From Haliotis asinina (lineage: Eukaryota > Mollusca > Gastropoda > Lepetellida > Haliotidae): a stretch of DNA of 64,000 nucleotides. A program made the position numbers and the translations under genes. Below, piece after piece: positions 6,525-47,917 of the stretch. Below the pieces are notes generated by a model. The model had not been told where the DNA came from, made no database searches, and saw nothing but the letters and a program-made list of their open reading frames with translations. Each line of letters starts with the position of its first letter. Within the stretch, counting starts at the first letter, position 1. Location: assembly GCF_037392515.1 (NCBI RefSeq), contig NC_090280.1, positions 75,504,504 to 75,568,503 on the forward strand, read 5' to 3'.

Positions 6525-8377
6525 ATGAACTCCTACAAGCAAGGTATTTCTTTATTTCTACAATAGTTAATTGTTGCCAATTTTGCTTTCTTTTATGACT
6601 TTTTGACTTTACTCATCCTGACGTAGGGTAAACGGAGAAACTTCCTGAACATTTTGCCGGTTGCCATTGAAGATTCACTCGAGTTAAATTTATTTGGCGT
6701 TACTTACGGACTTTCAACCTTTCAAGTGGGTTTAAAAATAACAGTATACAACATCAATTTCACAGAGTTATATAATAGGAACGCGGTATGTGCTTATAAC
6801 TACTACTAGTGGCTATTTATGCAGCTTCATTTGTGCTCTCCACCATATCAGTTTGGTTTCTCGCAATGGTAAATACTAAACTGTTTTCAGAATAAGTACG
6901 TTATTGGTGTTTAGGATCACAGTATAGTACCCGAAGCCAGATTTATTAATATATAGTTCAGCCTAACTGTGTTCCAACCGAGCCATAAGCCAGTTCTTGT
7001 TCTCACAGTATAAATCAGGAATTGTTTTCAGAATATATTCAGTTACATTGTAAGGTCTGAATTTGCTGCCAGCTATAATTTTTAAGGTCTTCTGACCAGT
7101 AGTAGTGTTCCTTCTGTCCACATGCTACCATCACGATTCAGTACCAAAAGTTCGGTAACAACCGCTAATATCTAAACCGTATCATGGTGATTATACGAGT
7201 GCTCCGATAGCCAGGTTGGAAACACATGGGAACTAAGCCGGTTGAGTCGGAGTAATTGTACATTTGTACAATATTGCAACGTCATAGTTAAGAATGGGAA
7301 AGGGTGGTGAAGCCAATAATGTTCTGATACAATGATGCACGTTTGATGTCATGCGCGATTATTTGATGGGGGATTCTACAGTTGGCCCAAAATAATAAAT
7401 AAATTATTCAGGAAAACATGATTAATATCAACATAGACTCGACATGCTTGACCAAGACGTATTGTGATATATATATTGTATACAAAAGGGTCACTGGTAC
7501 TCACAAAGGTAAGTCACAAGTCGTCAAATATGGAACCCCCAAACCGACTGCAAGTATGTTATTTGTACAAACACAAGAGTTGTCTTGATGTGTATAAAAA
7601 TATCAATGGGGAAAGAGCACATGGTTTGGCCGATTAGCAGACAATATGTCCGGTATAAAAATGATATCCCATGTATGTTGTTATCTTAATTTTGTGTAAT
7701 ACCCTGCTATTCCAATTTTATTGTTGAAGGCCATTTGTTGTTGAAAGTTTGATACAGTCAGGCTCTGTTTGATGTTAGGGGTTATTTCTAAGACTTTCAT
7801 TCCTTCTTTCCTCACAGCCCTTGACCTCGTGATCAGGTTCCCTTTGAACTTTGACATCTGGGCCCCTCCTCGTCAAGTGGGTGTTTAAGGGATTCAGTAG
7901 CTTCATATTGTAAAACTGAATTTGTTTGCGTCTACTATTTGTGTATGGACCAATCCATTGTCTCAGTTACTGACACAAAGCCATGTCTTGACATTATTAT
8001 TGATTATTTATTTTGCAGTAAATATCCCAAATCTAAATCCCATTTTCCTTATACTGACCATGACTATATCAATCAGTCATGACCATCTACTCTTTCTCTA
8101 CTTTCCCCATCTGTCAATCTTTTCTTGCCCTTCTCTTCCTCCCTGTCAGCGTCCGACTGGGAGATACATGACCATCCTTGAACCCCTGTCTGAGCTGCCC
8201 ACCCCTCCCACCTCTCTCCCTGTCCCTCTGTCTACCCCCGTCCTCCGTGATGCCCCCCACTTCGTTGATATCAACCTTGATGACGACGACACCCCGACTC
8301 AATCCCCAGTTCGAGTCTTCCTGTCACGTGTGTCTGGATTCTTGAGGAGAGTGTTCCGTACCAAGATGGATGCCTAG
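6525..8377 (+). CDS. Array gene copy 1, unknown 101-aa protein
   Basis: I infer three exons: 6525-6543, 7818-7876 and 8150-8377. Exon 1 is ATG plus five codons (MNSYKQ) and one base, with donor AAG|GTATTT. Exon 2 follows TTTCCTCACAG and ends CAA|GTGGGT. Exon 3 follows CTCCCTGTCAG and ends in TAG. Phases join exactly (1, then 0) into 101 codons. The protein starts MNSYKQALDLVIRFPLNF, has the motif FDIWAPPRQ, a Pro/Leu-rich middle (EPLSELPTPPTSLP), an acidic patch (DINLDDDD) and a basic C-terminal segment FLSRVSGFLRRVFRTKMDA that could form an amphipathic helix. There is no signal peptide, transmembrane segment or family motif that I recognise, so no function is offered. The start is chosen because the ATG lies just below a conserved promoter and all four copies share it. 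Exon 2 is identical in all four copies, and changes in exon 3 are largely at third positions. Confidence 0.72.
6544..7817 (+). other. Intron 1 of copy 1
   Basis: 1274 bp between the exon 1 donor and the exon 2 acceptor. It is near-identical to intron 1 of copy 2 (14807-16042). I see no gene or mobile element inside. The last 60 bp before exon 2 (TTATTTCTAARACTTTCATT and the pyrimidine tract) are conserved in all four copies. Confidence 0.6.
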
Positions 8378-9180
8378 AGTGACATCGTGTAATTATTTGT
8401 ATTCTTGTGGAGTGTGTTTAAGATGGACGCTTAGAGTGACATCTTACAGATGTTTGGATTCTTGAGGAACGTGTTTAAGATGGACGCTTAGAGTGACATC
8501 TTGGAATTTTTTTTATTCTTGAGGAGCGTGTTTAAGATAGACACCTAAAGTGACATCTTGGAATTGTTTGGATTCTTGAGTGTGTTTAAGATCGACGCTT
8601 AGAGTGACATCTTGCAATTGTTTGGATTCTTGAGGAGTGTGTTTAAGATGGACACTTAGAGTGACATCTTGCAACTGATTCTTAGGGAGTGTGTTTAAGA
8701 TGGACACCTAAAGTGACGTCTTGCAATTGTTTGGATTCTTGAGGAGTGTGTTTAAGGTCGACGCTTGGAGTGACATCTTACAGTTGTTTGGATTCTTGAG
8801 GAGTGTGTTTAAGATGGACACCTAAAGTGACATCTTGCAATTATTGTTTGGATTCTTGAGGAGCGTGTTTAAGATGGACGCTTAGAGTGACATCTTGCAG
8901 TTGTTTGGATTCTTGAGGAGCGTGTTTAAGATGGACGCTTAGAGTGACATCTTGCAATTGTTTGGGTTCTTGAGGAGCGTGTTTAAGATGGACGCTTAGA
9001 GTGACATCTTACAGTTGTTTGGATTCTTGAGGAGCGTGTTAAAGATGGACGCTTAGAGTGACATCTTACAGTTGTTTGGATTCTTGAGGAGCGTGTTAAA
9101 GATGGACGCTTAGAGTGATATCTTACAGTTGTTTGGATTCTTGAGGAGTGTGTTTAAGATGGACCCTGAGAGTGATTTCT
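8378..9180 (+). repeat. 57-bp minisatellite, copy 1 (about 14 units)
   Basis: Starting at the stop codon of exon 3, units of 57 bp (some shortened) repeat about 14 times. The unit reads as GGATTCTTGAGGAGTGTG, TTTAAGATGGACGC, TTAGAGTGACATCTT, then a CAATTGTTT or CAGTTGTTT link. It is an amplified copy of the end of exon 3 (GGATTCTTGAGGAGAGTG ... AAGATGGATGCCTAG), lacking six bases present in the exon. The units lie after the stop, so they belong to the 3' UTR or downstream DNA. Confidence 0.9.
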
Positions 9181-9840
9181 TCCCGCCTTGTAAACTGTGC
9201 CATATGATAATTAACTGCATTGAATAATATATACAATATGTTTGGCGGCTCTATATTTTTGGACCTTTCGGACAATTTTCGGATGTTTTGGATTTTTATG
9301 GTTTTGGTTTATTCTATAACTCTTTGCTCTTTTTGGCTTTTTCGGACAAGATTTGACAACACTTCTTTAAGTATGAATTTGAAACATATCAGTTATAACT
9401 ATTAAATAGTGATTTTACTTTCTATGTGATTTGTTGAGTGTTTCTTGTTTTGTATTTGTGTAAGATACACGTGCTTTCTTAGATGTTCTGACACGAACAT
9501 TTTGGCGCGCCATGAGTGTTCTGCCTGCGTGTTAGTGAGTGAGAGTGGTTTATCTCCGCTTTGAGAGATATTGGTACCATACCAGGATAACGGAAACAAA
9601 TACAATACTGACAGTGGCCGATACTGTAGTTTCCATTGAATATGTATACGTTTATGAGTGTGAGTAAATATTTTTGAGTGACTATTGGACCAATGAAAAC
9701 AGTATTTACCTGCCTCAGCAACGACCGATCCTGTCCATGACGTCAGAGCAGGGTACCACGTGGCACATACCACACACCCATACAGTATATTAGTAGTGTC
9801 TGTCACCAAGGTTCTTATGTGTTTGTTTTTCTGCATGATT
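9181..9840 (+). other. Conserved 3' block, copy 1
   Basis: This block follows the minisatellite in every copy (9181-9840, 16946-17640, 30100-30790, 47925-48420) and is T-rich at first (TTCGGACAATTTTCGGATG, GGCTTTTTCGGACAAGATT). It contains a conserved GTTA|GTGAGT at 9531-9540, a plausible donor for an intron in the 3' UTR that would join the candidate terminal exon at 11617. No coding frame is conserved in it. Confidence 0.5.
9738..9762 (+). promoter_or_regulatory. Conserved CRE plus E-box downstream of copy 1
   Basis: A full palindromic CRE, TGACGTCA (9738-9745), is followed 11 bp later by an E-box CACGTG (9757-9762). The pair is at 17518-17542 in copy 2 and 30666-30690 in copy 3. In copy 4 the CRE remains (48341-48348) but the E-box has changed to CACATA. 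Conservation through otherwise drifting sequence suggests a real element; whether it is an enhancer or a second promoter is unknown. Confidence 0.5.
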
Positions 9841-11059: not shown

Positions 11060-11124
11060 TTTTATTGAAAATAAATAAATGAAAATAAATATGAATAAAT
11101 ATATAAGAAATAAATAATTAAAAA

Positions 11125-11156
<32 letters not shown>
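11060..11156. repeat. AAAT/AATA microsatellite, unit 1
   Basis: Degenerate then regular AAAT-type repeats. A shorter version is in unit 2 at about 24575-24632. Confidence 0.85.
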
Positions 11157-12117: not shown

Positions 12118-12169
12118 GCTGTGTCCACGACAATAAATTAAGTAAAGCCAAAGGTGACAAATATTTGTC

Positions 12170-14787: not shown

Positions 14788-16616
14788 ATGAACTCCTACA
14801 AGCAAGGTATTTCTTTATTTCTACAATAGTTAATTGTTGCCAATTTTGCTTTCTTTTATGACTTATTTACTTTACTCATCCTGGCGTAGGGTAAACGGAG
14901 AAACTTCCTGAACATTTTGCCGGTTGACGTTGAAGATTGACACGAGTTAAATTTATTTGGCGTTACTTACGGACTTTCAACCTTTCAAGTGGGTTTAAAA
15001 ATAACAGTATACAACATCAATTTCACAGAGTCATATAATAGATACGCGGTATGTGCTTATAACTACTAGTAGTGGTTATTTGTGCCCTCCACCTTATCAA
15101 TTTTGTTTCTCGCAATGGTAAATACTAAACTGTTTTCAGAATAAGTACGTTATTGGTGTTTAGGATCACAGCATAGTACCGAAGCCAGATTTATTAATTA
15201 TATAGTTCAGCCTAACTGTGTTCCAACCGAGCCATAAGCCAGTTCTTGTTCAGTATAAATCAGGAATTGTTTTCAGAATATATTGAGCGACATTGTAAGG
15301 TCTGAAATTGCTGCTAGCTATAATTTTTAAGGTCTTCTGACCAGTAGTAGTGTTCCTCTGTCCACATGCTACCATCAGCACCAAAAGTTCGGCAACAACT
15401 GCTAATATCTAAACCGTATCATGGTGATTATACGAGTGCTCCGATAGCCAGGTTGGAAACACATGGGAACTAAGCCGGTTGAGTCGGAGTAATTGTACAT
15501 TTGTACAATATTGCAACGTCATAGTTAAGAATGGGAAAGGGTGGTGAAGCCAATAATGTTCTGATACAATGATGCACGTTTGATGTCATGCACGATTATT
15601 TGATGGGGGATCCTAAATAGGCCCAAAATAATAAATAAATTATTCAGGAAAAAATGATTAATATCAACATAGACTCGACGTACTTGACCAAGTCGTATTG
15701 TGATATATATTGTATACAAAAGGGTCACTGGTACTCACAAAGGTAAGTCACAAGTCGTCAAGTATGGAACCCCCCAAACCGACTGCAAATATGTTATTTG
15801 TACAAACACAAGAGTTGTCCTCTGATGTGTATAAAAATATCAGTGGGGAAAGAGCAAATGGTTTGGCCGATTAGCAGACAATATGTCCGGTATAAAAATG
15901 ATATCCCATGTATGTTGTTATCTTAATTTTGTGCTATTGCAGTTTTATTGTTGAAGGCCATTTGTTGTTGGAGGTTTGATACAGTCAGGCTGTGTTTGAT
16001 TTTTGGTTATTTCTAAGACTTTCATTCCTTCTTTCCTCACAGCCCTTGACCTCGTGATCAGGTTCCCTTTGAACTTTGACATCTGGGCCCCTCCTCGTCA
16101 AGTGGGTGTTTAAGGGAATCAGTAGCTTCATATTGTAAAACTGAATTTGTCTGCGTCTACTATTTGTGTATGGACCAATCCATTGTCTCAGTTACTGACG
16201 CAAAGCCATGTCTTGACATTATTATTGATTATTTATTTTGCAGTAAATATCCCAAATCTAAATCCCATTTTCCTTATACTGACCATGACTATATCAATCA
16301 ATCACCATCTACTCTTTTTCTCTACTTTCACCATCTGTCAATCTCTTCTTGCCCTTCTCTTCCTCCCTGTCAGCGTCCTACTGGGAGATACATGACCATC
16401 CTTGAACCCCTGTCTGAGCTGCCCACCCCTCCCACCTCTCTCCCTGCCCCTCTCTCTACCCCCGTCCTCCGTGATGCCCCCCACTTCGTTGATATCAACC
16501 TTGATGATGACGACACCCCGCCTCAATCCCCAGTTCGAGTCTTCCTGTCACGTGTGTCTGGATTCTTGAGGAGAGTGTTCCGTGCCAAGATGGATGCCAA
16601 GAGTGACATCGTGTAA
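14788..16616 (+). CDS. Array gene copy 2, unknown 106-aa protein
   Basis: Exons are 14788-14806, 16043-16101 and 16374-16616, with the same junctions and phases as copy 1. Exons 1 and 2 are identical to copy 1. Exon 3 differs at a few codons (VPLST to APLST, TPTQS to TPPQS, FRTK to FRAK). The usual TAG stop is AAG here, so the protein gains KSDIV and ends at a TAA that also exists downstream of the stop in copy 1. Apart from this the gene looks whole. Its core promoter has been moved 1.2 kb away by the TIR element, and only motifs inside that element lie close to exon 1. Function unknown; same acidic and basic C-terminal features as copy 1. Confidence 0.7.
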
Positions 16617-16945
16617 TTATTTGTATTCTTGTGGAGTGTGTTTAAGATGGACACCTAAAGTGACATCTTGCAATTGTTTGGATTGTTGAGGAGTGTGTTT
16701 AAGATAGACACCTAAAGTGACATCTTGCAATTGTTTGGATCCTTGAGTGTGTTTAAGATGGACGCTTAGAGTGACATCTTACAGTTGTTTGGAGTCTTGA
16801 GGAGTGTGTTTAAGATGGACGCTTAGAGTGACATCTTACAGATGTTTGGATACTTGAGGAGTGTGTTTAAGATGGACGCTTAGAGTGACATCTTACAGTT
16901 GTTTGGATTCTTGAAGAGCGTGTTTAAGATGGAGGCTGAGAGTGA
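16617..16945 (+). repeat. 57-bp minisatellite, copy 2 (about 6 units)
   Basis: Same unit as in copy 1. Two early units carry GACACCTAAAGTGACATC in place of GACGCTTAGAGTGACATC, so the stop slot is TAA there. Confidence 0.9.
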
Positions 16946-17640
16946 TATCTTCCCACCTTGTAAACTGTGCCATATGATAATTAACTGCATTGAATAATAT
17001 ATACAATATGTTTGGCGACTATCTACATTTTTGGACCTTTCGGACAATTTTCGGATGTTTTGGATTTTTATGATTTTGGTTTATTCTGTGAATCCTTGCT
17101 CTTTTTGGCTTTTTCGGACACGATTTGACAACACTTCTTTAAGTATAAATTTGAAACATATCAGTTATAACTATTAAATAGTGATTTTACTTTCTATGTG
17201 ATTTGTTGGGTGTTTCTTGTTTTGTATTTGTGTAAGATACACTTGCTTTTAGATGATCTGTAACTAGGAGACACGAACATTTTGGCGCGCCATGAGTGTT
17301 CTGCCTGCGTGTTAGTGAGTGAGAGTGGTTTATCTCCGCTTTGAGAGATATTGATAACACACCAGGATAACGCGAACAAATACAATACTGACAGTGGCCG
17401 ATACTGTAGTTTCCATTGAATATGTATACGTTTATGAGTGTGAGTATATATTTTTGAGTGATTATTGGACCATTGAAAACAGTATTTACCTGCCTCAGCA
17501 ACGACCGATCCTGGCTATGACGTCAGAGCAGGGTACCACGTGGCACATACCACACACCCATACAGTATATTAGTAGTGTCTGTCACCAAGGTTCTTATGT
17601 GTTTGTTTTTCTGCACGATTCCATTTTGTTGAGGTAGTCG
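16946..17640 (+). other. Conserved 3' block, copy 2
   Basis: Orthologous to 9181-9840, including the GTTA|GTGAGT candidate donor (17311-17320) and the CRE/E-box pair at 17518-17542. Confidence 0.5.
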
Positions 17641-18122: not shown

Positions 18123-18929
18123 AAGGAGGGGCACCAGCCCCAGTCCCAAGCGTCTGTAGGAGAGACACACCACAACTGGCCCCAGCGTCCCAAGGAGGGA
18201 CACCCCTACCCGAACCAAGCGTTCGAAGCGCTCCAAGGAGGGAAACAAGGACCAGCCCCATGCGCCCCAAGGAGGGGCACCAGCACAAGTCCCAGTGAGT
18301 GAGTTAGTGAGTGAGTTAGTGAGTTAATATTTATCGTCACATCGGCAATATTGCAGCCATAGCGTGACGAGAATGATTACTTATAAAAATACAAATGAAT
18401 TGATGCATTGTAAAACCCTGTCAACGAAGGACAGTGAAACTAACTAGAATATCACAGAGTAGAAGGTAAAACTAGTGAAGAGACCTAAAACAATGTATCT
18501 ATAGAGGACTGTACAATATAAAAATGAGCTATAGGTTGCCAACAACTGAGGGTAGATCACCATACTAAGGACAATGGGGACTTACAGTGCATTTGCTTCC
18601 TGCATGGACCCTTGCTGGATTTACATCATTCCTTCAGCTGTTAGCAATTTAGACAAATCTAGCCATACAGTAAAAACACACTTATTCTACGATTAAAAAG
18701 CTGGAAAACTGAAATTTACTTCAAATGTTTTTGGACTTAAGTACCCTCTCAGGAGGACAATTATTTTACGGTACTTCAACCCCCTGTGAGGGTACAGCCA
18801 CTAAAGATTTGAGTTACTATTTTAATCTTCCAATTTTAAAATATTCATCTATTTACAGTTCAGTTAACACATCTAATTCCTTTAAAAATGCAATTATTAA
18901 ATGAGGACTAATATTGCTAAAAAGATCCT

Positions 18930-21900
18930 TCATAGATTGTGAATTAAAATACTGATCCCTTGTGATGGAATACTCAACACAGTCAAGCAAGATATGCTTT
19001 CATCACAAGGGATGCAGAACGGAGGATCCTCACCTTTCAAAAGGTATTCATGAGTATATCTCGTATGGCCAATACGACATCGCCGCAAAATGACCTCCTC
19101 AAATCTGGACTGACAACCCAAGTGGGTATAACCAATATAAGGTTTTATTGCATGTAATTTATTGATACCCACCTGGGTGTCCCACTTCTTCTGCATCAGA
19201 TCATGGATATAAGATCTTATTATAGCTTTATAATCAGAGTATGGAATAAGAAATGGAGTCACAGATTTGTTTAGTACTGCCTTAGCAGCAAGATCGGCCA
19301 TTGTGTTGCCAGAAATGCCTACATGGCTTGGAAACCAACAAAAGACGATGTCGTATTGGCCAGTAGCAAGATTATTATATAATTCAATTATTGCTATTAA
19401 AAGTGGATGTTTACACGACAGGTTTTTAATTGCCTGGAGGCATGAAACAGAATCGGAGTAGATAATATACTGTTTATGTATAGGATGTCCATCAATATAT
19501 TTAAGAGCCGTTAGTATAGAGTTTGCTTCCGCTGTGAAAATAGAACTATTATCCGGTAATCTGAAAGATATTGTTCTGGATCCAATGACACTGGCACAAG
19601 CCACTGCGCCACCGTCCTTGGACCCATCTGTAAATAAGGATTTATAAGTCCTATATTTATGTTTCAGTTGATTATATTCTTGTTTATACTGTAATTCATT
19701 CGTTTCTGATTTTTTAAATGTACTTAATGTTAGGTCAACTTGTGGCCTAGCCAACTGTCAAGGAGGAGAAGAAAGAAGTCGGAAAGGAGCTATATTTTCC
19801 AACTCAATGCCAGCAAGAAATGGCTTAATTCTGAGACCAAGAGGCGGAACAAGAGAAGACTTTTTGTTATACAAAACCTCATAAAGAGGATTAAAGACAG
19901 AATTAAATGCGGGATTAGACTCATTGGAAGCTAATTTTGTGATGTATTGTAAAGATAGTTTTATACGGCGTTGGTTGAGAGTAGGCTCATCAGCTTCGAC
20001 ATAAAGACTGTCGATAGGAGTGGTTCTAAAAGAACCAAGACAAAGTCTTAGGCCTTGTTGATAGACAGAATCAAGTATTTTTAGGTTGCTTTGACAGGCT
20101 CCACCATATATGATGGAACCATAATCAAGTTTTGATCGTACGAGTGATCTATATAAGTGGAGGAGGGTACGCTGATTTCCTCCCCATTTTGAATTAGACA
20201 CAACCTTTAATAAATCAAGAGCCTTCTAGCATTTGGCTTTTAGGGATTTAATATGGAGCAAAAAGGTCAAATGTGAATCAAAAACAAGTCCCAAGAACTT
20301 AGCCTCCTTGACAACTTTGATAGGGGTGCTACTGAGAAATAGTTCTAGGTCTTTATGGGGTTGATATTTACGGCAGAAGTGTATACAACTGGCTTTTGAT
20401 TTAGAAAGTTTGAAGCCATTTTCGAGACACCATTGATCTATTTTGTTTAAACACAGCTGCAGTTGCCGTTCAATAGTATGCATATTTTTCCCACGACAAG
20501 AAATATTAAAATCATCCACAACTAGCGAACCATCTATTGAATCGTTTAAAACTTTAGATAAACTGTTGATCCTGATGCTAAAAAGAGTGACAGACAAAAT
20601 ACTGCCTTGTGGAACACCCTGATCCTGATTGTAATGATCAGACAGGGTAGAACCCACGCGGACTTGAAATTGTATGTTACTTAAAAAGTTGGCTATGAAT
20701 TACTGCCCTGTAGCAGTATCGTAAGCTTGATCAAGAGCAGTATGAAGCTCATGAATAGAAAATAGTTCGTTATAGTCTTCCCCGTTATCTGAATGGAAAT
20801 TAATAGTTTTCTTTTCTTGTTGTCTTTGATACGGTTGGAATTTCGGCATATAGTCAGAAGAGGAAGAATGTTTAGCATGCGTTTCACCCAGTTTATTTGC
20901 AATATCTGATTTATCAGTAAGTAATTGATTTCCATGTTTAAGATGATGGACATTAGATTTTGTACCCTTACCTTTAATTTTCTTTACCATGTTCCACACT
21001 TTAGACATGGGCGTTCGAGAATTTATTTTGGAGACATAATTTTTCCAAGATTGACGTTTAGTCATTTTAAAGGTACGCCGCACTTTAGCATTTAAAATTT
21101 TAAATTTATTTAAATTATGGACCATAGGATGGCGACGGAAATACTGTTCTGCTTTCTTCCGTGCCTTCCTAGCTTGTTTGCAGTCATCAGTAAACCATGG
21201 TTTACCTATGTGTGGGTTTGAAGAGGACTTCGGAACACATTCATCAGCTATTTTACGAAGTTCGGTAGAGAAAGAATCTATAGGATCAGGAACGTCAAGA
21301 AAACACATCAGGTGTTAGTTTATTAGAACAAAGAATTTCATACCAAGCCCAGTTAGCTATAGCAAGGTTCCATCGTGATGATAGAGAGATATCCGATGGT
21401 GTCACAGATTTATAAAGTGGGAAAATGATCACTTCCACAGAGGTCATCGTGAATTGACCATTCGAACTCACTTAGCAGATGAGAATCAACAACAGCTAAA
21501 TCAAGCCACGAATACGTTCCAGTTCCTGGATGCAAATATGTAGAAGAACCATCATTGTATATGCATTGTCATTGTTTAAGAAAAAATCCTCCAAAACTTT
21601 ACCTTTCGTATTGCTGTCAATCCTACCCCAAAGTGGGTTATGGCCATTTAAATCTCCCATGATTATACAGGGTTTCGGGAGTTGGTCATAAAGTGACTGA
21701 AGATCATATTGTTGAAGACAATATGACGGTGGGATGTATAAAGAACATAAAGTGAACACGACATTCAATGTCACACGAACTGCAACAGCCTGGAGAGGGG
21801 TACGAAGAGGGACAGGGCTATGAATGACACCCTGCCTCACCAAAACAGAAGATCCCCTAGTTGCTTTATCGCCTTGGGGAGAAAAGTGATGATATGAGTC

Positions 21901-22077
21901 ATATTGTCTTAAATCAATTTTATCTGTGTTTTTGAGGAATGTTTCTTGTAAACAAAGAGCAGAAGGTTTTAAATCTTGGATGAATAGCTGAAGATCAGAT
22001 AAATTATTCCGAAGACCTCTACAATTCCACTGTAATAAACTGTCAGGGCGGTTCATGGGGGCATAATAGGAGATCAT
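18930..22077 (-). pseudogene. LINE ORF2 (EN, RT, RNase H), broken
   Basis: Endonuclease (22077-21370): QWNCRGLRNN, LCLQET, IIMGDLNGHNPLWG and GSDHFP motifs are visible, with a frameshift near 21550 and further frame changes to about 21310. RT: the text runs from ALDQAYDTATG straight to FIANFLSNIQ at about 20700. A TATGPD-to-motif-A stretch of roughly 150 residues normally lies there, so the fingers and first catalytic Asp are deleted. GVPQGSILS and LVVDDFNISC follow; the usual aromatic before the DD is Val here. Stops lie near 20700, 20226 and 19757. RNase H (about 19640-19250) keeps FTDGS, AEAN, YSDS and HVGISGNTMAD, all catalytic positions. It is a dead copy. Confidence 0.8.
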
Positions 22078-27291: not shown

Positions 27292-29810
<2,519 letters not shown>

Positions 29811-30098
29811 AGTGACATCTTGAAATTGTTTGGATTCTTCAGGACTGTGTTTAAGATGGACGCTTAGAGTGATATCTTACAGTTGTTTGGATTCTTGAGG
29901 AGTGTTCTTAAGATGGACGCTTAGAGTGACATCTTGAAATTGTTTGGATTCTTCAGGACTGTGTTTCAGATGGACGCTTAGAGTGACATCTTGCAATTGT
30001 TTGGATTCTTGAGGAGTGTGTTGAAGATGGACGCTTTGAGTGACATCTTACATTTGTTTGGACTCTTGAGGAATGTTTAAGGTGGACGGCCAGAGTGA
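29811..30098 (+). repeat. 57-bp minisatellite, copy 3 (about 5 units)
   Basis: Same unit as in the other copies. The first unit after the stop has TTGAAATTGTTTGG and CTTCAGGACTGTG variants that are shared with the start of the copy 4 array. Confidence 0.9.
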
Positions 30099-30099
30099 T

Positions 30100-30790
30100 A
30101 TCTTGCCATCTTGTAAACTGTGCCATATGATAATTAACTGTGTTGAATCATAAATATAATATGTTTGGCGACTCTATGTTTTTGGACCTTTCGGACATTT
30201 TTTCGGATGTTTTGGATTTTTGTGTTTTTGGTTTATTCTATAAATATTTAATCTTTTTGGCTTTTTCGGACAAGATTTGACAACAAGTATACATTTGAAA
30301 CACATCAATTATAACTATTAAATATTACTTTTACTTTCCAGTTGTTTTGCTGGGTTTTTGTTGTTTTGTTTTTGTGTTAGATACACTTGCTTCCCTAGAC
30401 GTGCTGTAACTAGGACTCACGAACACTTTGGCGCGCCATCATCGTACTGCCTGCGTGTTAGTGAGTGAGTGTGGTTTATCTCCGCTTTGAGAGAAACTGG
30501 TACCACACCAGGATGGTGCGGATACAAATGCAATACTGACAGTGGTCGATACTTTAGTTTCCATTGAATATGTATACATCTATGAGTGTGAGTAAATATT
30601 TTTCAGTGATTATTGGACCAATGAAAACAGTGTTTACCTGCCTCAGCAACGACCCATCCTGGCCATGACGTCAGAGCAGGGTACCACGTGGCAGACACCC
30701 ATACAGCATATTAGTAGTGTCTGTCACCAGGGTTCTTATGTGTCTTTTTTTCTTTACTGCACGATTCCATTTTGTTGAGGTAGTCACGGA
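30100..30790 (+). other. Conserved 3' block, copy 3
   Basis: Orthologous to 9181-9840, with GTTA|GTGAGT at 30457-30466, CRE 30666-30673 and E-box 30685-30690. Confidence 0.5.
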
Positions 30791-35797: not shown

Positions 35798-38561
35798 ATG
35801 AACTCCTACACCCAAGGTATTTCTCTATTTCCACTATAGTAAATTGTTGCCTTTTTTAGCTTTTGTCTATGACTTATTTACTTTATTACCGATCCTATGT
35901 AGGGAAACGAAGGAACTTTCCAGTACGTCTTGTCGGCTGCCAAGGAAGACTGAACAGTGTTAAATTTGTTTTTGCGTTACTTTTTGCCTTTTAACCTTTC
36001 AGTATGTTGTTGAACAACAGAATACAACATCCATTTCACACAATTATATATGAGCAGGATAAGCTCATACCCAGTAGTTATGCAGATTCTGTTGTGCCCT
36101 TCCGCAGTGGTAAAATACACTAAACTGTCTCCAGAATCAGTATGATATTGGTATTTAGGATCCAGAATTCTGAAACCAAACTTACTAACATATGATTCAA
36201 ACTAGTTCCAACCAAGCCCAGCGGCTGAAGGGATGGTGTGTATCCATCTAGGGTCCATGCAGGTAGTGAAGGTACTGTAAGTCCCCATGGACCCTAGTAT
36301 GGTGATCTTCAGCTGTAGCCGATCTATAGCCTATTTTAATAGTTTATTGTCCAAATAGTGATATTAGTTTTACCTTTACACGCTAGTTTTAATGCTGATT
36401 GTGATATTCTAATTGTTTTACTGTCCCTTGTTCATATATATTCCATTTTAGTGTTAAATGTTCTCGTCACGATGTGGCTGCAATATTGCAATATTGCCGA
36501 TGTGACGTTAAATATTAACTCACTCACTCCAGCCGAGCCATAAACCAGTTTAAGTTCCTGCAGTAAAAGTCAGAAAACAAAAAGTTTTCAGAATATGCTG
36601 TTTATACACACTGATGATGATTTAGGTTCTCGTTCACCTTGAGCTGTAAAACTGCTACCAAATTTGTAGGTCGTACAAGTCGGTAGTATGCCTTTCCCCA
36701 ATTTGTACCAAAACGTTGGCAACAACCACCAGTATCTGAACACTATTATGGTGATTGTACAAGTGCTTCTAATAGTCCATGGGAACATAGACCAGGGAGT
36801 AATACAACAATACTGCTATATCATAGTTAAGAATGGGAACGGGTGGAGAAGTCAAAGATGCTCTGAAACGAAAAAAAATACAGATATGAAATAGAAATAG
36901 AAATTTCTTCAAAAAAGACAGAAAAAAAAATACAAATTGAAATGTCATAAAAACATTACTATTGTCAACATTCTTCACCAAGTCATATTGTGATATATAT
37001 ATTGTATTCAATAGGGTCTTTGTCTCACAGAGGGAAGTCACATTTTTTTTTTTTTTGCACATTTTTTCTGGACACAGGTCACATGTTATATGTTGTTATT
37101 GACAAAAACAGAAGAGTATACAGGGCTGGATTCAAATATTGCTATCCTGCTTGCACAAGGTGGGTGTAGCCTATGACAAGATCTCAGCCTTGTGCAGGTT
37201 AGATTCATAAGTAGGTTCATTAGGTAAAATTAGTGCCAGTGCAAGCAACAAAGCAATAAATCCAGCCCTGATATGTATTCACAGATATGTGATGGTGTTA
37301 ATGTCATAAACCTACAAGTATATTGCTTAAGTTCAGTGTTAGATATGGACTATATCAAAGCAGGTAGTACATTACTAGGCAAATACAGTATGTAGTGATG
37401 ACAAAAATTTTGTAAACTTATCATATGAACAAGTTGTAAATGCTATACATTTTGAAACATAATAGTACTGGCAGCAGATTCTAAAGATATTCTTTCGGTC
37501 TGGTATTATTCCATATTTTCGGTTGCGAAAGATTGTTTGTTTAGTAGGAAGCAAAATTATATTCAATGGATCATTTCGATTTTCCTATAATCCAAATAGT
37601 ATGGTTTGTGGGGTGAGTTTAATTCTTATTCCAGCATCAGACATGAGCCACTCTTCAATTTTCTTCCAAAGTCTATTTATCACATTGCATTCCCCAAAAA
37701 GGTGTAAAATAGTTTCATTGGAAATTTTACAATAGCTACACAGGGAGTAGGGAAGTCAATTTGTCAAAGAACTAACCCCCAAATCGACAACATATAAGCT
37801 ATCTGTGTAAACATTGTGTCTGTTCACTGGCAATGGTGTACAAAAATATCCCAGGTAATTTTGTTGTCTCAATTTTGGTCAATACACTGCCACCACCATT
37901 TTATTGTTGAAGGCCATTTTTGTTGAAGATTTGATACAGTCAGGCTCTGTTTGATGTTTGGTTATTTCTAAAACTTTCATTCCTTTCTTTTTCCACAGCC
38001 CTTGACCTCGTGATCAGGTTCCCTTTGAACTTTGACATCTGGGCCCCTCCTCGTCAAGTGGGTACCTTAGGGAATCAGTTACTTCATATTGAAAAACTGA
38101 ATGTGTGTTCGTGTGCGTGCGTACGTGCTTGTGTGCGTGCTTGTGTGCGTGCATGTGTGCCGAACTAAAACAGATTTGGTCACCATTCTCCCTTTTGTGC
38201 AGTAAGTAACCAATATTTAATTCACATTTACCATATTTTATGATCATGACTACCAATCAATTTTGAACTCATTTACCCTTTTCCCCACTTCCACCTTCTG
38301 TCACTCTACTTTTCCTTCTCTTCCACCCCCTAGCATCCTACTGGGAGATTCATGACCATCCTTGAACCCTTGTCTGAGCTGCCCACCTCTTCCAGCTCTC
38401 TCCCTGCCCCACTCTCTAACCCCATTCTCTGTGATGCCCCCCACTTCGTTGACATCAACCTTGACGATGACGACAGCCCAACCCAGTCCCCAGTTCGAGT
38501 CTTCCTTTCACGTGTGTCTGTATTCTTGAGGAGAGTGTTCCATGTCAAGTTGGACGCTTAG
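35798..38561 (+). CDS. Array gene copy 4, unknown 101-aa protein
   Basis: Exons are 35798-35816 (MNSYTQ), 37999-38057 (identical to the other copies) and 38334-38561, joined in the same phases. Exon 3 follows CCACCCCCTAG and begins HPTGRFMT where the others have RPTGRYMT. It keeps EPLSELPT, APHFVDINLDDDD, TQSPVRVFLSRVS and ends FLRRVFHVKLDA with TAG. It is the most diverged copy but has no break. Intron 1 contains an L1/Tx1-like LINE fragment (37375-37745) and a Nimb-type LINE tail (36219-36528). Its 3' side carries the huge minisatellite. Function unknown. Confidence 0.68.
36219..36528 (+). mobile_element. LINE 3' tail fragment in intron 1 of copy 4
   Basis: Plus-strand 3' end of the 18295-23920 family, ending GATGTGACGTTAAATATTAA then CTCACTCACT. 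It is flanked by CCAACCAAGCC (36208-36218) and CCAGCCGAGCC (36529-36539), a likely 11-bp target duplication; the other copies have the site once (CCAACCGAGCC at 27714 in copy 3). Confidence 0.8.
37375..37745 (-). pseudogene. L1/Tx1-like LINE C-terminal fragment
   Basis: The minus-strand translation begins CSYCKISNETILHLFGEC, a C-x2-C...H-x4-C zinc finger of the type found after the RT of L1/Tx1-like LINEs. WKKIEEWL and the C-terminal tail TKQTIFRNRKYG follow. One in-frame TAG lies near 37590. Only the last 120 codons or so remain. Confidence 0.6.
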
Positions 38562-41500
38562 AGTGACATCTTGAAATTGTTTGGATTCTCGGGGAGTGTG
38601 TTTCTGATGGACGCTTGGAGTGACATCTTAGAATTGTTTGGATTCTTGAGGAGTGTGTTTGAGATGGACGCTTAGAGTGACATCTTGCAATTGTTTGGGT
38701 TCTTGAGGAGTGTGTTCAAGATGGACGTTTAGAGTGACATCTTAGAATTGTTTGGATTCTTGAGGAGTGTGTTTGAGATGGACGCTTAGAGTGACATCTT
38801 GCAATTGTTTGGGTTCTTGAGGAGTGTGTTCAAGATGGATGTTTAGAGTGACATCTTGCAATTGTTTGGGTTCTTGAGGAGTGTGTTTAAGATGGACGCT
38901 TGGAGTGACATCTTGCAATTGTTTGGGTTCTTGAGGAGTGTGTTTAAGATGGACGCTTGGAGTGACATCTTGCAATTGTTTGGGTTCTTGAGGAGTGTGT
39001 TTAAGATGGACGCTTAGAGTGACATCTTAGAATTGTTTGGATTCTTCAGGACTGTGTTTAAGATGGACGCTTAGAGTGATATCTTACAGTTGTTTGGATT
39101 CTTGAGGAGTGTTCTTAAGATGGACGCTTAGAGTGACATCTTGAAATTGTTTGGATTCTTCAGGACTGTGTTTCAGATGGACGCTTAGAGTGACATCTTG
39201 CAATTGTTTGGGTTCTTGAGGAGTGTGTTTAAGATGGACGCTTAGAGTGACATCTTAGAATTGTTTGGATTCTTCAGGACTGTGTTTAAGATGGACGCTT
39301 AGAGTGATATCTTACAGTTGTTTGGATTCTTGAGGAGTGTTCTTAAGATGGACGCTTAGAGTGACATCTTAGAATTGTTTGGATTCTTCAGGACTGTGTT
39401 TCAGATGGACGCTTAGAGTGACATCTTGCAATTGTTTGGGTTCTTGAGGAGTGTGTTTAAGATGGACGCTTGGAGTGACATCTTGCAATTGTTTGGGTTC
39501 TTGAGGAGTGTGTTTAAGATGGACGCTTAGAGTGACATCTTAGAATTGTTTGGATTGTTGAGAAGTGTGTTGAAGATGGACGCTTAGAGTGACATCTTAC
39601 AGGTGTTTGGATTGTTGAGGAGTGTGTTGAAGATGGACGCTTAGAGTGACATCTTGCAATTGTTTGGGTTCTTCAGGAATGTGTTCAAGATGGACGCTTA
39701 GAGTGACATCTTGCAATTGTTTGGGTTCTTCAGGAATGTGTTCAAGATGGACGCTTAGAGTGATATCTTACAATTGTTTGGGTTCTTCAGGAATGTGTTC
39801 AAGATGGACGCTTAGAGTGACATCTTGCAATTGTTTGGGTTCTTCAGGAATGTGTTCAAGATGGACGCTTAGAGTGACATCTTGCAATTGTTTGGGTTCT
39901 TCAGGAATGTGTTCAAGATGGACGCTTAGAGTGACATCTTGCAATTGTTTGGGTTCTTCAGGAATGTGTTCAAGATGGACGCTTAGAGTGACATCTTGCA
40001 ATTGTTTGGGTTCTTCAGGAATGTGTTCAAGATGGACGCTTAGAGTGACATCTTGCAATTGTTTGGGTTCTTCAGGAATGTGTTCAAGATGGACGCTTAG
40101 AGTGACATCTTGCAATTGTTTGGGTTCTTCAGGAATGTGTTCAAGATGGACGCTTAGAGTGACATCTTGCAATTGTTTGGGTTCTTGAGGAATGTGTTTA
40201 AGATGGACGCTTAGAGTGACATCTTGCAATTGTTTGGGTTCTTGAGGAATGTGTTTAAGATGGACGCTTAGAGTGACATCTTGCAATTGTTTGGGTTCTT
40301 GAGGAATGTGTTTAAGATGGACGCTTAGAGTGACATCTTGCAATTGTTTGGGTTCTTCAGGAATGTGTTCAAGATGGACGCTTAGAGTGACATCTTGCAA
40401 TTGTTTGGGTTCTTCAGGAATGTGTTCAAGATGGACGCTTAGAGTGACATCTTGCAATTGTTTGGGTTCTTCAGGAATGTGTTCAAGATGGACGCTTAGA
40501 GTGACATCTTGCAATTGTTTGGGTTCTTGAGGAATGTGTTTAAGATGGACGCTTAGAGTGACATCTTGCAATTGTTTGGGTTCTTGAGGAATGTGTTTAA
40601 GATGGACGCTTAGAGTGACATCTTGCAATTGTTTGGGTTCTTGAGGAATGTGTTTAAGATGGACGCTTAGAGTGACATCTTGCAATTGTTTGGGTTCTTC
40701 AGGAATGTGTTCAAGATGGACGCTTAGAGTGACATCTTGCAATTGTTTGGGTTCTTCAGGAATGTGTTCAAGATGGACGCTTAGAGTGACATCTTGCAAT
40801 TGTTTGGGTTGTTGAGGAGTGTGTTCAAGATGGACGCTTAGAGTGACATCTTGCAATTGTTTGGGTTCTTCAGGAATGTGTTCAAGATGGACGCTTAGAG
40901 TGACATCTTGCAATTGTTTGGGTTCTTCAGGAATGTGTTCAAGATGGACGCTTAGAGTGACATCTTGCAATTGTTTGGGTTGTTGAGGAGTGTGTTCAAG
41001 ATGGACGCTTGGAGTGACATCTTGCAATTGTTTGGGTTCTTCAGGAATGTGTTCAAGATGGACGCTTAGAGTGACATCTTGCAATTGTTTGGGTTCTTGA
41101 GGAATGTGTTTAAGATGGACGCTTAGAGTGACATCTTGCAATTGTTTGGGTTCTTCAGGAATGTGTTCAAGATGGACGCTTAGAGTGACATCTTGCAATT
41201 GTTTGGGTTCTTCAGGAATGTGTTCAAGATGGACGCTTAGAGTAACATCTTGCAATTGTTTGGGTTCTTGAGGAATGTGTTTAAGATGGACGCTTAGAGT
41301 GACATCTTGCAATTGTTTGGGTTCTTCAGGAATGTGTTCAAGATGGACGCTTAGAGTGACATCTTGCAATTGTTTGGGTTCTTCAGGAATGTGTTCAAGA
41401 TGGACGCTTAGAGTGACATCTTGCAATTGTTTGGGTTGTTGAGGAGTGTGTTCAAGATGGACGCTTAGAGTGACATCTTGCAATTGTTTGGGTTCTTCAG

Positions 41501-44500
41501 GAATGTGTTCAAGATGGACGCTTAGAGTGACATCTTGCAATTGTTTGGGTTCTTCAGGAATGTGTTCAAGATGGACGCTTAGAGTGACATCTTGCAATTG
41601 TTTGGGTTGTTGAGGAGTGTGTTCAAGATGGACGCTTGGAGTGACATCTTGCAATTGTTTGGGTTCTTCAGGAATGTGTTCAAGATGGACGCTTAGAGTG
41701 ACATCTTGCAATTGTTTGGGTTGTTGAGGAGTGTGTTCAAGATGGACGCTTAGAGTGACATCTTGCAATTGTTTGGGTTGTTGAGGAGTGTGTTCAAGAT
41801 GGACGCTTAGAGTGACATCTTGCAATTGTTTGGATTGTTGAGGAGTGTGTTCAAGATGGACGCTTAGAGTGACATCTTGCAATTGTTTGGGTTGTTGAGG
41901 AGTGTGTTCAAGATGGACGCTTGGAGTGACATCTTGCAATTGTTTGGGTTCTTCAGGACTGTGTTCAAGATGGACGCTTAGAGTGACATCTTGCAATTGT
42001 TTGGGTTCTTCAGGAGTGTGTTCAAGATGGACGCTTAGAGTGACATCTTGCAATTGTTTGGGTTGTTGAGGAGTGTGTTCAAGATGGACGCTTAGAGTGA
42101 CATCTTGCAATTGTTTGGATTGTTGAGGAGTGTGTTCAAGATGGACGCTTGGAGTGACATCTTGCAATTGTTTGGATTGTTGAGGAGTGTGTTCAAGATG
42201 GACGCTTAGAGTGACATCTTGCAATTGTTTGGGTTCTTCAGGAGTGTGTTCAAGATGGACGCTTAGAGTGACATCTTGCAATTGTTTGGGTTGTTGAGGA
42301 GTGTGTTCAAGATGGACGCTTGGAGTGACATCTTGCAATTTTTTGGGTTCTTCAGGACTGTGTTCAAGATGGACGCTTAGAGTGACATCTTGCAATTGTT
42401 TGGGTTCTTCAGGAGTGTGTTCAAGATGGACGCTTAGAGTGACATCTTGCAATTGTTTGGGTTGTTGAGGAGTGTGTTCAAGATGGACGCTTAGAGTGAC
42501 ATCTTGCAATTGTTTGGATTGTTGAGGAGTGTGTTCAAGATGGACGCTTGGAGTGACATCTTGCAATTGTTTGGATTGTTGAGGAGTGTGTTCAAGATGG
42601 ACGCTTAGAGTGACATCTTGCAATTGTTTGGGTTCTTCAGGAGTGTGTTCAAGATGGACGCTTAGAGTGACATCTTGCAATTGTTTGGGTTCTTCAGGAG
42701 TGTGTTCAAGATGGACGCTTAGAGTGACATCTTGCAATTGTTTGGGTTCTTCAGGAGTGTGTTCAAGATGGACGCTTAGAGTGACATCTTGCAATTGTTT
42801 GGGTTCTTCAGGAGTGTGTTCAAGATGGACGCTTAGAGTGACATCTTGCAATTGTTTGGGTTCTTCAGGAATGTGTTCAAGATGGACACCTAAAGTGACA
42901 TCTTGCAATTGTTTGGGTTCTTCAGGAGTGTGTTCAAGATGGACGCTTAGAGTGACATCTTGCAATTGTTTGGGTTCTTCAGGAATGTGTTCAAGATGGA
43001 CACCTAAAGTGACATCTTGCAATTGTTTGGGTTCTTCAGGAGTGTGTTCAAGATGGACGCTTAGAGTGACATCTTACAGGTGTTTGGGTTCTTCAGGAAT
43101 GTGTTCAAGATGGACGCTTAGAGTGACATCTTGCAATTGTTTGGGTTCTTCAGGAATGTGTTCAAGATGGACACCTAAAGTGACATCTTGCAATTGTTTG
43201 GGTTCTTCAGGAATGTGTTCAAGATGGACGCTTAGAGTGACATCTTGCAATTGTTTGGGTTCTTCAGGAATGTGTTCAAGATGGACACCTAAAGTGACAT
43301 CTTGCAATTGTTTGGGTTCTTCAGGAATGTGTTCAAGATGGACGCTTAGAGTGACATCTTGCAATTGTTTGGGTTCTTCAGGAATGTGTTCAAGATGGAC
43401 GCTTAGAGTGACATCTTGCAATTGTTTGGGTTCTTCAGGAATGTGTTCAAGATGGACGCTTAGAGTGACATCTTGCAATTGTTTGGGTTCTTCAGGAATG
43501 TGTTCAAGATGGACGCTTAGAGTGACATCTTGCAATTGTTTGGGTTCTTCAGGAATGTGTTCAAGATGGACGCTTAGAGTGACATCTTGCAATTGTTTGG
43601 GTTCTTCAGGAATGTGTTCAAGATGGACGCTTGGAGTGACATCTTGCAATTGTTTGGGTTCTTCAGGAGTGTGTTCAAGATGGACGCTTAGAGTGACATC
43701 TTGCAATTGTTTGGGTTCTTCAGGAATGTGTTTAAGATGGACGCTTGGAGTGACATCTTGCAATTGTTTGGGTTCTTCAGGAATGTGTTCAAGATGGACG
43801 CTTAGAGTGACATCTTGCAATTGTTTGGGTTCTTCAGGAATGTGTTTAAGATGGACGCTTAGAGTGACATCTTGCAATTGTTTGGGTTCTTCAGGAATGT
43901 GTTCAAGATGGACGCTTAGAGTGACATCTTGCAATTGTTTGGGTTCTTCAGGAATGTGTTTAAGATGGACGCTTGGAGTGACATCTTGCAATTGTTTGGG
44001 TTCTTCAGGAATGTGTTCAAGATGGACGCTTGGAGTGACATCTTGCAATTGTTTGGGTTCTTCAGGAATGTGTTCAAGATGGACGCTTGGAGTGACATCT
44101 TGCAATTGTTTGGGTTCTTCAGGAATGTGTTCAAGATGGACGCTTAGAGTGACATCTTGCAATTGTTTGGGTTCTTCAGGAATGTGTTCAAGATGGACGC
44201 TTAGAGTGACATCTTACAATTGTTTGGGTTCTTCAGGAATGTGTTTAAGATGGACGCTTGGAGTGACATCTTGCAATTGTTTGGGTTCTTCAGGAATGTG
44301 TTCAAGATGGACGCTTAGAGTGACATCTTGCAATTGTTTGGGTTCTTCAGGAATGTGTTCAAGATGGACGCTTAGAGTGACATCTTGCAATTGTTTGGGT
44401 TCTTCAGGAATGTGTTCAAGATGGACGCTTAGAGTGACATCTTGCAATTGTTTGGGTTCTTCAGGAATGTGTTCAAGATGGACGCTTAGAGTGACATCTT

Positions 44501-47500
44501 ACAATTGTTTGGGTTCTTCAGGAATGTGTTTAAGATGGACGCTTGGAGTGACATCTTGCAATTGTTTGGGTTCTTCAGGAATGTGTTCAAGATGGACGCT
44601 TGGAGTGACATCTTGCAATTGTTTGGGTTCTTCAGGAATGTGTTCAAGATGGACGCTTAGAGTGACATCTTGCAATTGTTTGGGTTCTTCAGGAATGTGT
44701 TCAAGATGGACGCTTAGAGTGACATCTTGCAATTGTTTGGGTTCTTCAGGAATGTGTTCAAGATGGACGCTTGGAGTGACATCTTGCAATTGTTTGGGTT
44801 CTTCAGGAATGTGTTCAAGATGGACGCTTAGAGTGACATCTTGCAATTGTTTGGGTTCTTCAGGAATGTGTTCAAGATGGACGCTTAGAGTGACATCTTG
44901 CAATTGTTTGGGTTCTTCAGGAATGTGTTCAAGATGGACGCTTGGAGTGACATCTTGCAATTGTTTGGGTTCTTCAGGAATGTGTTCAAGATGGACGCTT
45001 GGAGTGACATCTTGCAATTGTTTGGGTTCTTCAGGAATGTGTTCAAGATGGACGCTTGGAGTGACATCTTGCAATTGTTTGGGTTCTTCAGGAATGTGTT
45101 CAAGATGGACGCTTAGAGTGACATCTTGCAATTGTTTGGGTTCTTCAGGAATGTGTTCAAGATGGACGCTTAGAGTGACATCTTGCAATTGTTTGGGTTC
45201 TTCAGGAATGTGTTCAAGATGGACGCTTGGAGTGACATCTTGCAATTGTTTGGGTTCTTCAGGAATGTGTTCAAGATGGACGCTTAGAGTGACATCTTGC
45301 AATTGTTTGGGTTCTTCAGGAATGTGTTCAAGATGGACGCTTAGAGTGACATCTTGCAATTGTTTGGGTTCTTCAGGAATGTGTTCAAGATGGACGCTTG
45401 GAGTGACATCTTGCAATTGTTTGGGTTCTTCAGGAATGTGTTCAAGATGGACGCTTAGAGTGACATCTTGCAATTGTTTGGGTTCTTCAGGAATGTGTTC
45501 AAGATGGACGCTTAGAGTGACATCTTGCAATTGTTTGGGTTCTTCAGGAATGTGTTCAAGATGGACGCTTGGAGTGACATCTTGCAATTGTTTGGGTTCT
45601 TCAGGAATGTGTTCAAGATGGACGCTTAGAGTGACATCTTGCAATTGTTTGGGTTCTTCAGGAATGTGTTCAAGATGGACGCTTAGAGTGACATCTTGCA
45701 ATTGTTTGGGTTCTTCAGGAATGTGTTCAAGATGGACGCTTGGAGTGACATCTTGCAATTGTTTGGGTTCTTCAGGAATGTGTTCAAGATGGACGCTTAG
45801 AGTGACATCTTGCAATTGTTTGGGTTCTTCAGGAATGTGTTCAAGATGGACGCTTAGAGTGACATCTTGCAATTGTTTGGGTTCTTCAGGAATGTGTTCA
45901 AGATGGACGCTTGGAGTGACATCTTGCAATTGTTTGGGTTCTTCAGGAATGTGTTCAAGATGGACGCTTAGAGTGACATCTTGCAATTGTTTGGGTTCTT
46001 CAGGAATGTGTTCAAGATGGACGCTTAGAGTGACATCTTGCAATTGTTTGGGTTCTTCAGGAATGTGTTCAAGATGGACGCTTAGAGTGACATCTTGCAA
46101 TTGTTTGGGTTCTTCAGGAATGTGTTCAAGATGGACGCTTAGAGTGACATCTTGCAATTGTTTGGGTTCTTCAGGAATGTGTTCAAGATGGACGCTTAGA
46201 GTGACATCTTGCAATTGTTTGGGTTCTTCAGGAATGTGTTCAAGATGGACGCTTAGAGTGACATCTTGCAATTGTTTGGGTTCTTCAGGAATGTGTTCAA
46301 GATGGACGCTTAGAGTGACATCTTGCAATTGTTTGGGTTCTTCAGGAATGTGTTCAAGATGGACGCTTAGAGTGACATCTTGCAATTGTTTGGGTTCTTC
46401 AGGAATGTGTTCAAGATGGACGCTTAGAGTGACATCTTGCAATTGTTTGGGTTCTTCAGGAATGTGTTCAAGATGGACGCTTAGAGTGACATCTTGCAAT
46501 TGTTTGGGTTCTTCAGGAATGTGTTCAAGATGGACGCTTAGAGTGACATCTTGCAATTGTTTGGGTTCTTGAGGAATGTGTTTAAGATGGACGCTTAGAG
46601 TGACATCTTACAATTGTTTGGGTTCTTCAGGAATGTGTTCAAGATGGACGCTTAGAGTGACATCTTGCAATTGTTTGGGTTCTTCAGGAATGTGTTCAAG
46701 ATGGACGCTTAGAGTGACATCTTGCAATTGTTTGGGTTCTTCAGGAATGTGTTCAAGATGGACGCTTAGAGTGACATCTTGCAATTGTTTGGGTTCTTCA
46801 GGAATGTGTTCAAGATGGACGCTTAGAGTGACATCTTGCAATTGTTTGGGTTCTTCAGGAATGTGTTCAAGATGGACGCTTAGAGTGACATCTTGCAATT
46901 GTTTGGGTTCTTCAGGAATGTGTTCAAGATGGACGCTTAGAGTGACATCTTGCAATTGTTTGGGTTCTTCAGGAATGTGTTCAAGATGGACGCTTAGAGT
47001 GACATCTTGCAATTGTTTGGGTTCTTGAGGAATGTGTTTAAGATGGACGCTTAGAGTGACATCTTACAATTGTTTGGGTTCTTCAGGAATGTGTTCAAGA
47101 TGGACGCTTAGAGTGACATCTTGCAATTGTTTGGGTTCTTCAGGAATGTGTTCAAGATGGACGCTTAGAGTGACATCTTGCAATTGTTTGGGTTCTTCAG
47201 GAATGTGTTCAAGATGGACGCTTAGAGTGACATCTTGCAATTGTTTGGGTTCTTCAGGAATGTGTTCAAGATGGACGCTTAGAGTGACATCTTGCAATTG
47301 TTTGGGTTCTTCAGGAATGTGTTCAAGATGGACGCTTAGAGTGACATCTTGCAATTGTTTGGGTTCTTCAGGAATGTGTTCAAGATGGACGCTTAGAGTG
47401 ACATCTTACAATTGTTTGGGTTCTTCAGGAATGTGTTCAAGATGGACGCTTAGAGTGACATCTTGCAATTGTTTGGGTTCTTCAGGAATGTGTTCAAGAT

Positions 47501-47917
47501 GGACGCTTAGAGTGACATCTTGCAATTGTTTGGGTTCTTCAGGAATGTGTTCAAGATGGACGCTTAGAGTGACATCTTGCAATTGTTTGGGTTCTTCAGG
47601 AATGTGTTCAAGATGGACGCTTAGAGTGACATCTTGCAATTGTTTGGGTTCTTCAGGAATGTGTTCAAGATGGACGCTTAGAGTGACATCTTACAATTGT
47701 TTGGATTGTTGAGGAATGTGTTCAAGATGGACGCTTGGAGTGACATCTTAGAATTGTTTGGATTGTTGAGGAATGTGTTCAAGATGGACGCTTGGAGTGA
47801 CATCTTACAGGTGTTTGGGTTCTTCAGGACTGTGTTCAAGATGGACGCTTGGAGTGACATCTTGCAATTGTTTGGGTTCTTCAGGAATGTGTTCAAGATG
47901 GACGCTTGGAGTGACAT
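38562..47917 (+). repeat. 57-bp minisatellite, copy 4 (about 164 units)
   Basis: 9356 bp divided by the 57-bp period gives about 164 units, directly after the stop of copy 4. The main unit reads TTGCAATTGTTTGGGTTCTT, CAGGAATGTGTTCAAGATGG, ACGCTTAGAGTGACATC. Units differ at a few linked sites: TAG, TAA or TGG at the stop slot; TTCAGGAATG, TTGAGGAGTG or TTCAGGACTG in the middle; TTTAAG or TTCAAG; TTGCAA, TTACAA or TTAGAA at the start. Variants fall in larger periods: 171 bp at 45055-46000, 399 bp at 41950-42590 and 456 bp at 46568-47024. The outer 1-1.5 kb at the left is more diverse than the core, as expected for unequal exchange. The period is 19 codons, so several long open frames run through it on both strands; none is a gene. 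Confidence 0.97.

Follow-up and report, generated by a model that had tools for sequence, protein, structure and literature searches.

The question of where a tandem repeat originated is often a difficult one, as the seed sequence no longer exists. The stretch of Haliotis asinina DNA analyzed here (64,000 nucleotides of contig NC_090280.1; hereafter the window) raises this question in a concrete form. It carries four copies of a small three-exon gene, each followed at its coding end by an array of 57-bp units that resemble that very end. Did the array grow out of the end of the gene, or did the gene capture a repeat that already existed?

The exons and splice sites of the gene were assigned by inspection, and its predicted product of 101 amino acids matched no family in Pfam and no entry in a PDB sequence search. 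TRF places the 57-bp arrays at 8363-9175, 16587-16951, 29796-30106 and 38545-47917, and cutting in register after the coding end yields 14, 6, 5 and 164 units for copies 1 to 4, with all 164 units of the last being exactly 57 bp long. Both the array behind every copy and the roughly 164 units behind copy 4 had been claimed in the original prediction, and both are borne out by these two methods. The features, all on the forward strand, are as follows.

6525..6543, +, copy 1 exon 1 (MNSYKQ), ending in phase 1, splice sites by inspection
7818..7876, +, copy 1 exon 2 (ALDLVIRFPLNFDIWAPPRQ)
8150..8377, +, copy 1 exon 3 coding part, stop TAG at 8375-8377
8336..8377, +, copy 1 coding end, 42 nt, homologous to the repeat unit by alignment
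8378..9175, +, copy 1 array, 14 units, by TRF and register cutting
16043..16101, +, copy 2 exon 2
16374..16616, +, coding part of copy 2 exon 3; AAG stands at the usual stop position, and the frame runs to TAA at 16614-16616
16560..16601, +, copy 2 coding end, by alignment to the unit
16587..16951, +, copy 2 array, 6 units (TRF span, starting within the coding end)
29192..29250, +, copy 3 exon 2
29583..29810, +, copy 3 exon 3 coding part with TAG
29769..29810, +, copy 3 coding end, by alignment to the unit
29796..30106, +, copy 3 array, 5 units (TRF span, starting within the coding end)
37999..38057, +, copy 4 exon 2
38334..38561, +, copy 4 exon 3 coding part with TAG
38520..38561, +, copy 4 coding end, by alignment to the unit
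38545..47917, +, copy 4 array, 164 units (TRF span), 33 of them distinct, the commonest kind present 74 times

In copy 2, the AAG at the stop position adds five codons that run into the first unit (16599-16616, KSDIV and a stop). Aligning the unit with the exon 3 ends, which the original prediction had proposed as its own check, gave scores of 39, 36, 49 and 40 for copies 1 to 4, all above the best of 1000 shuffles (22, 30, 22 and 24, respectively); the weakest match is that of copy 2, at 36 against 30.

Copies of the gene occur well beyond the window. Searching the window's own assembly (1143 Mb, 159 contigs) with exon 3 returned 52 matches on contigs C1, C5, C9, C15 and C16, 49 of which were placed, leaving aside an internal piece within a C5 array and two short partial matches. 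Exon 2 returned 50 matches (E up to 1), situated a few hundred bases 5' of most exon 3 copies, including the array-free relative L058, where the donor after CAA fits too; a lone exon 2 (L075, C9:35.01 Mb) has no exon 3 discernible by eye in the 1.35 kb downstream. Codons and substitution rates were counted in a set of 45 full exon 3 copies, without L062, L073, L074 and L072. All are free of internal stops; immediately behind the last aligned residue stands TAG in 40, TAA in two, TGA in one, AAG in one (window copy 2) and ACA in one (L066), whose alignment ends one residue early and whose following codon is TAA. Counting L066 by that next codon, a stop precedes the array in 44 of the 45, the exception being window copy 2. 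Exon 3 dN/dS, drawn from pairs that are not independent, is 0.15-0.40 in comparisons involving C1, 0.62-0.65 between C9 and C15, and within C15 0.50 for upstream codons and 0.95 for the last 14. Such values point to a gene under purifying selection overall.

TRF detects an array of 57-65 bp period behind 43 of the 49 placed copies and none behind the other six. The period is 57 in 34 copies, all on C1 or C5, and on C9 or C15 it is 63 in seven, 65 in one and 60 in one, the last reading also as a 123-bp dimer. By comparison with exon 3, the unit is the last 13 codons plus the stop (42 nt, minus 6 in the 57-bp form). The 6-bp piece had been thought to occur only at the true coding end, a claim that falls with the longer C9 and C15 units (mostly 63 bp), which retain it; since they do, the 57-bp form seems to have arisen later, by deletion. 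In an array cluster at C1:73.84-73.89 Mb, GAG replaces the TAG of the unit in 22 of 25 (L040), 16 of 22 (L049) and 16 of 22 (L054) units counted.

Beyond its coding part, the unit probably also holds about 21 nt of 3'UTR. The 63-bp unit reads AGTGACATC and then TTGCAACGTTTT, and the sequence behind the last unit resembles TTGCAACGTTTT in several copies: the best array tail, that of L046, matches this part at 19 of 21 positions, and those of window copies 1-3 at 14, 16 and 16. Over the last 12 of the 21 nt, 10 are matched in L046, L063, L070 and L071, and 7 or 8 in window copies 1-3; random flank 12-mers reached 10 of 12 in 5 of 9600 cases and 8 or more in 58 of 9600, in a crude control whose flank pool includes some array DNA. 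The tail search gave no hit for 12 of the 49 copies, and several of its 37 hits look false. None of the C15 array tails was recovered; the case for a 3'UTR part draws on C1, C5 and C9, and this part is less certain than the coding one. Probably, then, the first unit joined the 42-nt coding end, stop included, to some 21 nt of 3'UTR. An earlier description of the unit as some 13 codons, the stop and 12 further bases stands for the coding part and gives way in its extent, where tail resemblance suggests about 21 bases.

Sequence identity between gene end and unit is by itself symmetrical, and an array trails 43 of the 49 placed copies; both are compatible with a pre-existing minisatellite that the gene captured and that supplied its last 13 codons and stop. 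Direction was read from relatives, and the outgroups used here are paralogs from the same single assembly. Array-free L058 (C1:93.76 Mb; 51-58% identical to window copy 1 across two comparisons) ends in FFSSVFRVRKMDA-TGA (KMDA and a stop). With L058 as query, more distant relatives were sought genome-wide, giving the weak matches L076 (C15:43.62 Mb, 46% to L058, E 2.4e-4) and L077 (C1:79.61 Mb, 38% to L058, E 0.025); these are the ones that were read, one of four weak matches at C15:43.6 Mb and one of eleven at C1:79.6 Mb. L076 ends in FFRRVKNVFKKKDL-TGA and L077 in RVFTSNKNDL-TAA; both preserve the C-terminal pattern in similar form, and behind the stop of L077 comes AGTGACATTTTG, as it does in the unit (AGTGACATCTTG). 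Neither has an array within the 630 bases fetched. The eleven distant relatives listed at C1:79610003-79650535, many of them 3.5 kb apart, are 38% identical to L058 at E 0.025-0.21.

The same kind of C-terminus is thus present once, and free of any array, in the paralogs L058, L076 and L077, and the unit matches listed in the genome lie at gene loci; both observations speak against a captured repeat, which we consider very hard to credit. Rooted on L076 and L077, which were added to it, a protein tree of 47 rows (without L062, L073, L074 and L072) places the 43 rows with arrays or decayed units, plus L060, on one side of a branch supported at 96/86. Because L058, L076 and L077 hold a similar end once without an array, and because the arrayed copies form one clade, the coding end appears to be older than the array. 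The proposal that the array came from the stop-codon end of exon 3 is upheld by these array-free ends and by this branch, and so is the accompanying claim that the array predates the gene duplication, in that it would have begun before the four window copies separated.

These trees, it should be said, are built on 75 codons, include the columns of the unit itself and leave many forks unresolved. Within the arrayed clade of the protein tree, support for how C9, C15 and C1/C5 branched is weak (78/49, 58/0). In a DNA tree of 46 rows (without L062, L073 and L074), neither the 57-bp nor the 63-bp class forms one clade, each requiring 2 changes, and L059, with its decayed units, is placed inside the 57-bp group. 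L060 is array-free yet lies within the 44-row clade, as protein-tree sister of the C15 63-bp copies (98/90), and in its 3' flank a unit start is, by eye, joined to the downstream 3'UTR. Given that position and the flank resembling a unit start, we read L060 as a probable array loss. We considered L060 as the seed state and set it aside on the same two grounds; the DNA tree does not fix its place. A single gain of the array would accordingly need either a loss at L060 or a different placing of it.

We therefore favor, with a probability of roughly 0.87, a history in which a gene-end duplication was followed by array growth, carriage with gene copies, a 6-bp deletion and separate later fates as a neutral passenger. 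In a single ancestral gene, a segment of about 63 bp (the last 13 codons, the stop and roughly 21 nt of 3'UTR) would have been duplicated in tandem, so that its copy came to lie behind the original stop; the coding part of this segment follows from the comparisons above, and the 3'UTR part is probable. Homology at the junction is 2 bp (TG), as judged by eye only. Since the first stop stayed in place, the protein would have been unchanged, and the extra copies would have lain behind it, presumably in the 3'UTR. The array would then have grown by slippage or unequal exchange, as suggested by the unit blocks common to copies 3 and 4, the homogeneous interior and the more diverged gene-proximal end of the copy 4 array. 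As the gene duplicated within and between contigs, the array would have been carried along, and a 6-bp deletion arising within a unit in the lineage ancestral to the C1 and C5 copies would have spread to give the 57-bp form. Arrays would later have grown, decayed or been lost separately, the extremes being the 164 units behind window copy 4 and none behind L060, where they were probably lost.

Turnover is visible at several loci. Copy 3 units recur in copy 4 in nearly the same order, by eye, and mean differences from the consensus (of 57 sites) in copy 4 are 5.7 in the first ten units, 1.3 in the middle and 1.7 in the last ten. TRF copy numbers run from 2.9 to 26.5 in 42 arrays and to 164.4 with copy 4, although the arrays of L040 and L064 continue to the end of the fetched piece. 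The C9 copies L059 and L066 keep only a few decayed units, and their coding ends persist. At one C5 copy (24851285), 205 nt comprising 148 nt of exon 3 with its stop and the first unit occur again inside the array, 202 of 205 identical:

C5:24851788-24851931, exon 3 piece re-duplicated into the array of its own gene

This would be a recent second, larger duplication across the same stop codon, one that put exon 3 sequence back inside the array. Could the array itself help the gene family to multiply, its dozens of similar stop-fixed stretches offering homology for unequal exchange so that repeat and gene amplification feed each other? We regard this as improbable; if it is true, the C5 re-duplication would offer a glimpse of the co-amplification of repeat and gene.

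The length of the copy 4 array calls for some caution, as 74 of its 164 units are identical and such arrays are hard to assemble. An assembly artefact nevertheless seems unlikely, given 33 distinct units, a diverged gene-proximal end and a position inside one contig; nor does any higher-order period dominate, identity staying at 0.96-0.97 from lag 1 to lag 15. In any case, the argument about origin is independent of the copy 4 unit count. The locus had also been described as a repeat caught at birth, which we do not sustain: the duplication is older than the spread over contigs C1, C5, C9 and C15, and only the 164-unit burst looks young.

Is the array translated? Unit lengths of 57 and 63 are multiples of three, the last unit of copy 2 reads on in frame, and many units of the C1:73.8 Mb cluster have GAG for TAG. 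One might therefore suppose that the units once encoded, or still encode, a protein repeat of 19 or 21 codons that a stop has cut off, with the old C-terminus ESDIFPPCKLCHMIINCIE and its stop after the array. Mutations within the 57-mers, to which our counts are limited (several C9 and C15 arrays being poorly cut), bear on this supposition. Singletons among distinct 57-mers comprise 66 nonsynonymous, 15 synonymous and 5 stop changes, close to the 67.6, 15.3 and 3.1 expected without coding selection. When changes are counted by cluster, column and base, codon positions 1 to 3 receive 84, 55 and 95, with position 2 low (p 0.004), as a coding repeat might predict; by singletons the figures are 34, 21 and 34, which is not significant (p 0.15). 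The deficit at position 2 is not fully explained, and common ancestry of the units may be its cause. Moreover, L058, L076 and L077 read a stop at the corresponding place, a stop follows the last aligned residue in 43 of 45 copies, and L066 has its TAA one codon on. A protein repeat is thus most improbable, and the notion of a severed C-terminus lying behind the array was rejected once the three outgroup ends had been read. With a stop before the array in nearly all full copies and singletons as expected, the array does not behave as a coding VNTR of translated, constrained units.

Retention for a 3'UTR role, such as a factor bound once per unit or the tuning of mRNA stability, would fit the fact that 43 of the 49 placed copies, spread over four contigs, are trailed by an array. 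Common descent alone gives retention too, however, and copy numbers spanning 2.9 to 164.4, together with coding ends that persist at L060 without an array and at L059 and L066 with few decayed units, make such a role improbable in our judgment. Because singleton mutations look neutral, the array, presumably inside the 3'UTR, is best read as untranslated and is most likely a neutral passenger of gene-end origin.

How should such a repeat be classed? Satellite DNA forms very long arrays, mainly heterochromatic and independent of a source gene. Minisatellites are recognized in part by length polymorphism between individuals; here, array lengths differ between paralogous copies in one assembly, and the arrays consist of 57-65 bp units, all but one of them in the modest copy numbers given above. 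Searches of the window's own genome with unit DNA gave 385 and 483 matches, about 150 of each listed and in gene clusters, and a 27-base core with up to 2 mismatches gave 437, against none for a reversed-pattern control; every one of the 100 core matches listed is exact and lies in a gene cluster on C1, C5 or C15. The unit was not seen apart from the gene among these listed matches (about 150 of 385, about 150 of 483 and 100 of 437), which agrees with the predicted gene origin; among them there is no sign of the independent spread that the label of satellite would imply. Viral contigs returned 35 pattern hits, none of them confirmed. One review, which notes that the term has no agreed definition, takes a minisatellite to be a tandem array of up to about 100 units (PMC6947457). 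The 42 arrays of 2.9 to 26.5 copies fall within this range, and the 164 units of copy 4 exceed it.

The mechanism has precedent. In the model of Haber and Louis (1998), as relayed by that review (PMC6947457), minisatellites are born by duplication between short flanking repeats of 5-10 bp. The present case is alike in that a short unique segment is duplicated and then subject to slippage, conversion or unequal crossing-over; it differs from the model, as the review presents it, in its flanking homology of about 2 bp (TG, by eye), in a source that is a coding exon end with its stop, and in the array-free relatives in the same genome. The same review tabulates minisatellites derived from transposable elements, with Alu, B1 and LTR examples (PMC6947457). 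Their units are likewise traceable to a known source sequence, although the source here is a gene under apparent purifying selection and not a transposable element. Among the papers listed by our literature searches we saw no minisatellite of stop-codon-end origin, although this does not prove that none has been described. The human SLC6A3 (DAT1) and CEL VNTRs are repeats of variable number in a 3'UTR and at a coding end, respectively, and resemble the present arrays in lying at the 3' end of a gene and varying in number. To our knowledge, their units hold no stop codon and do not trail most paralogs, unlike the unit here, which holds a stop and trails 43 of 49.

While the mechanism is known, a polarized series together with its source gene is unusual, and what sets this case apart is that the unit comes from a coding end together with its stop, that array-free relatives survive and that most gene copies are trailed by the array. 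One genome appears to hold array-free relatives, a 63-bp form, a 57-bp form and decayed and lost arrays, along with a recent burst to 164 units and a further duplication spanning the same stop codon. A unit that contains a stop is placed such that it can grow without changing the protein: the first stop stays, and additions fall only behind it.

Several further observations concern the window as a whole. Because 57 is a multiple of three, long open frames are possible inside the copy 4 array, where they occur at 42586-46572 (+, 1328 aa; no Pfam match at E 0.01) and 39768-43022 (-, 1084 aa); they are an annotation trap. Downstream of copy 2, at about 18300-23900 on the reverse strand, lie broken remnants of a non-LTR retrotransposon, with RNase H in 18930-19754 and endonuclease in 21496-22077. 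TRF also finds a tandem repeat of about 370 bp period at 2922-4122 (3.3 copies) and another of about 470 bp period at 57890-61580.
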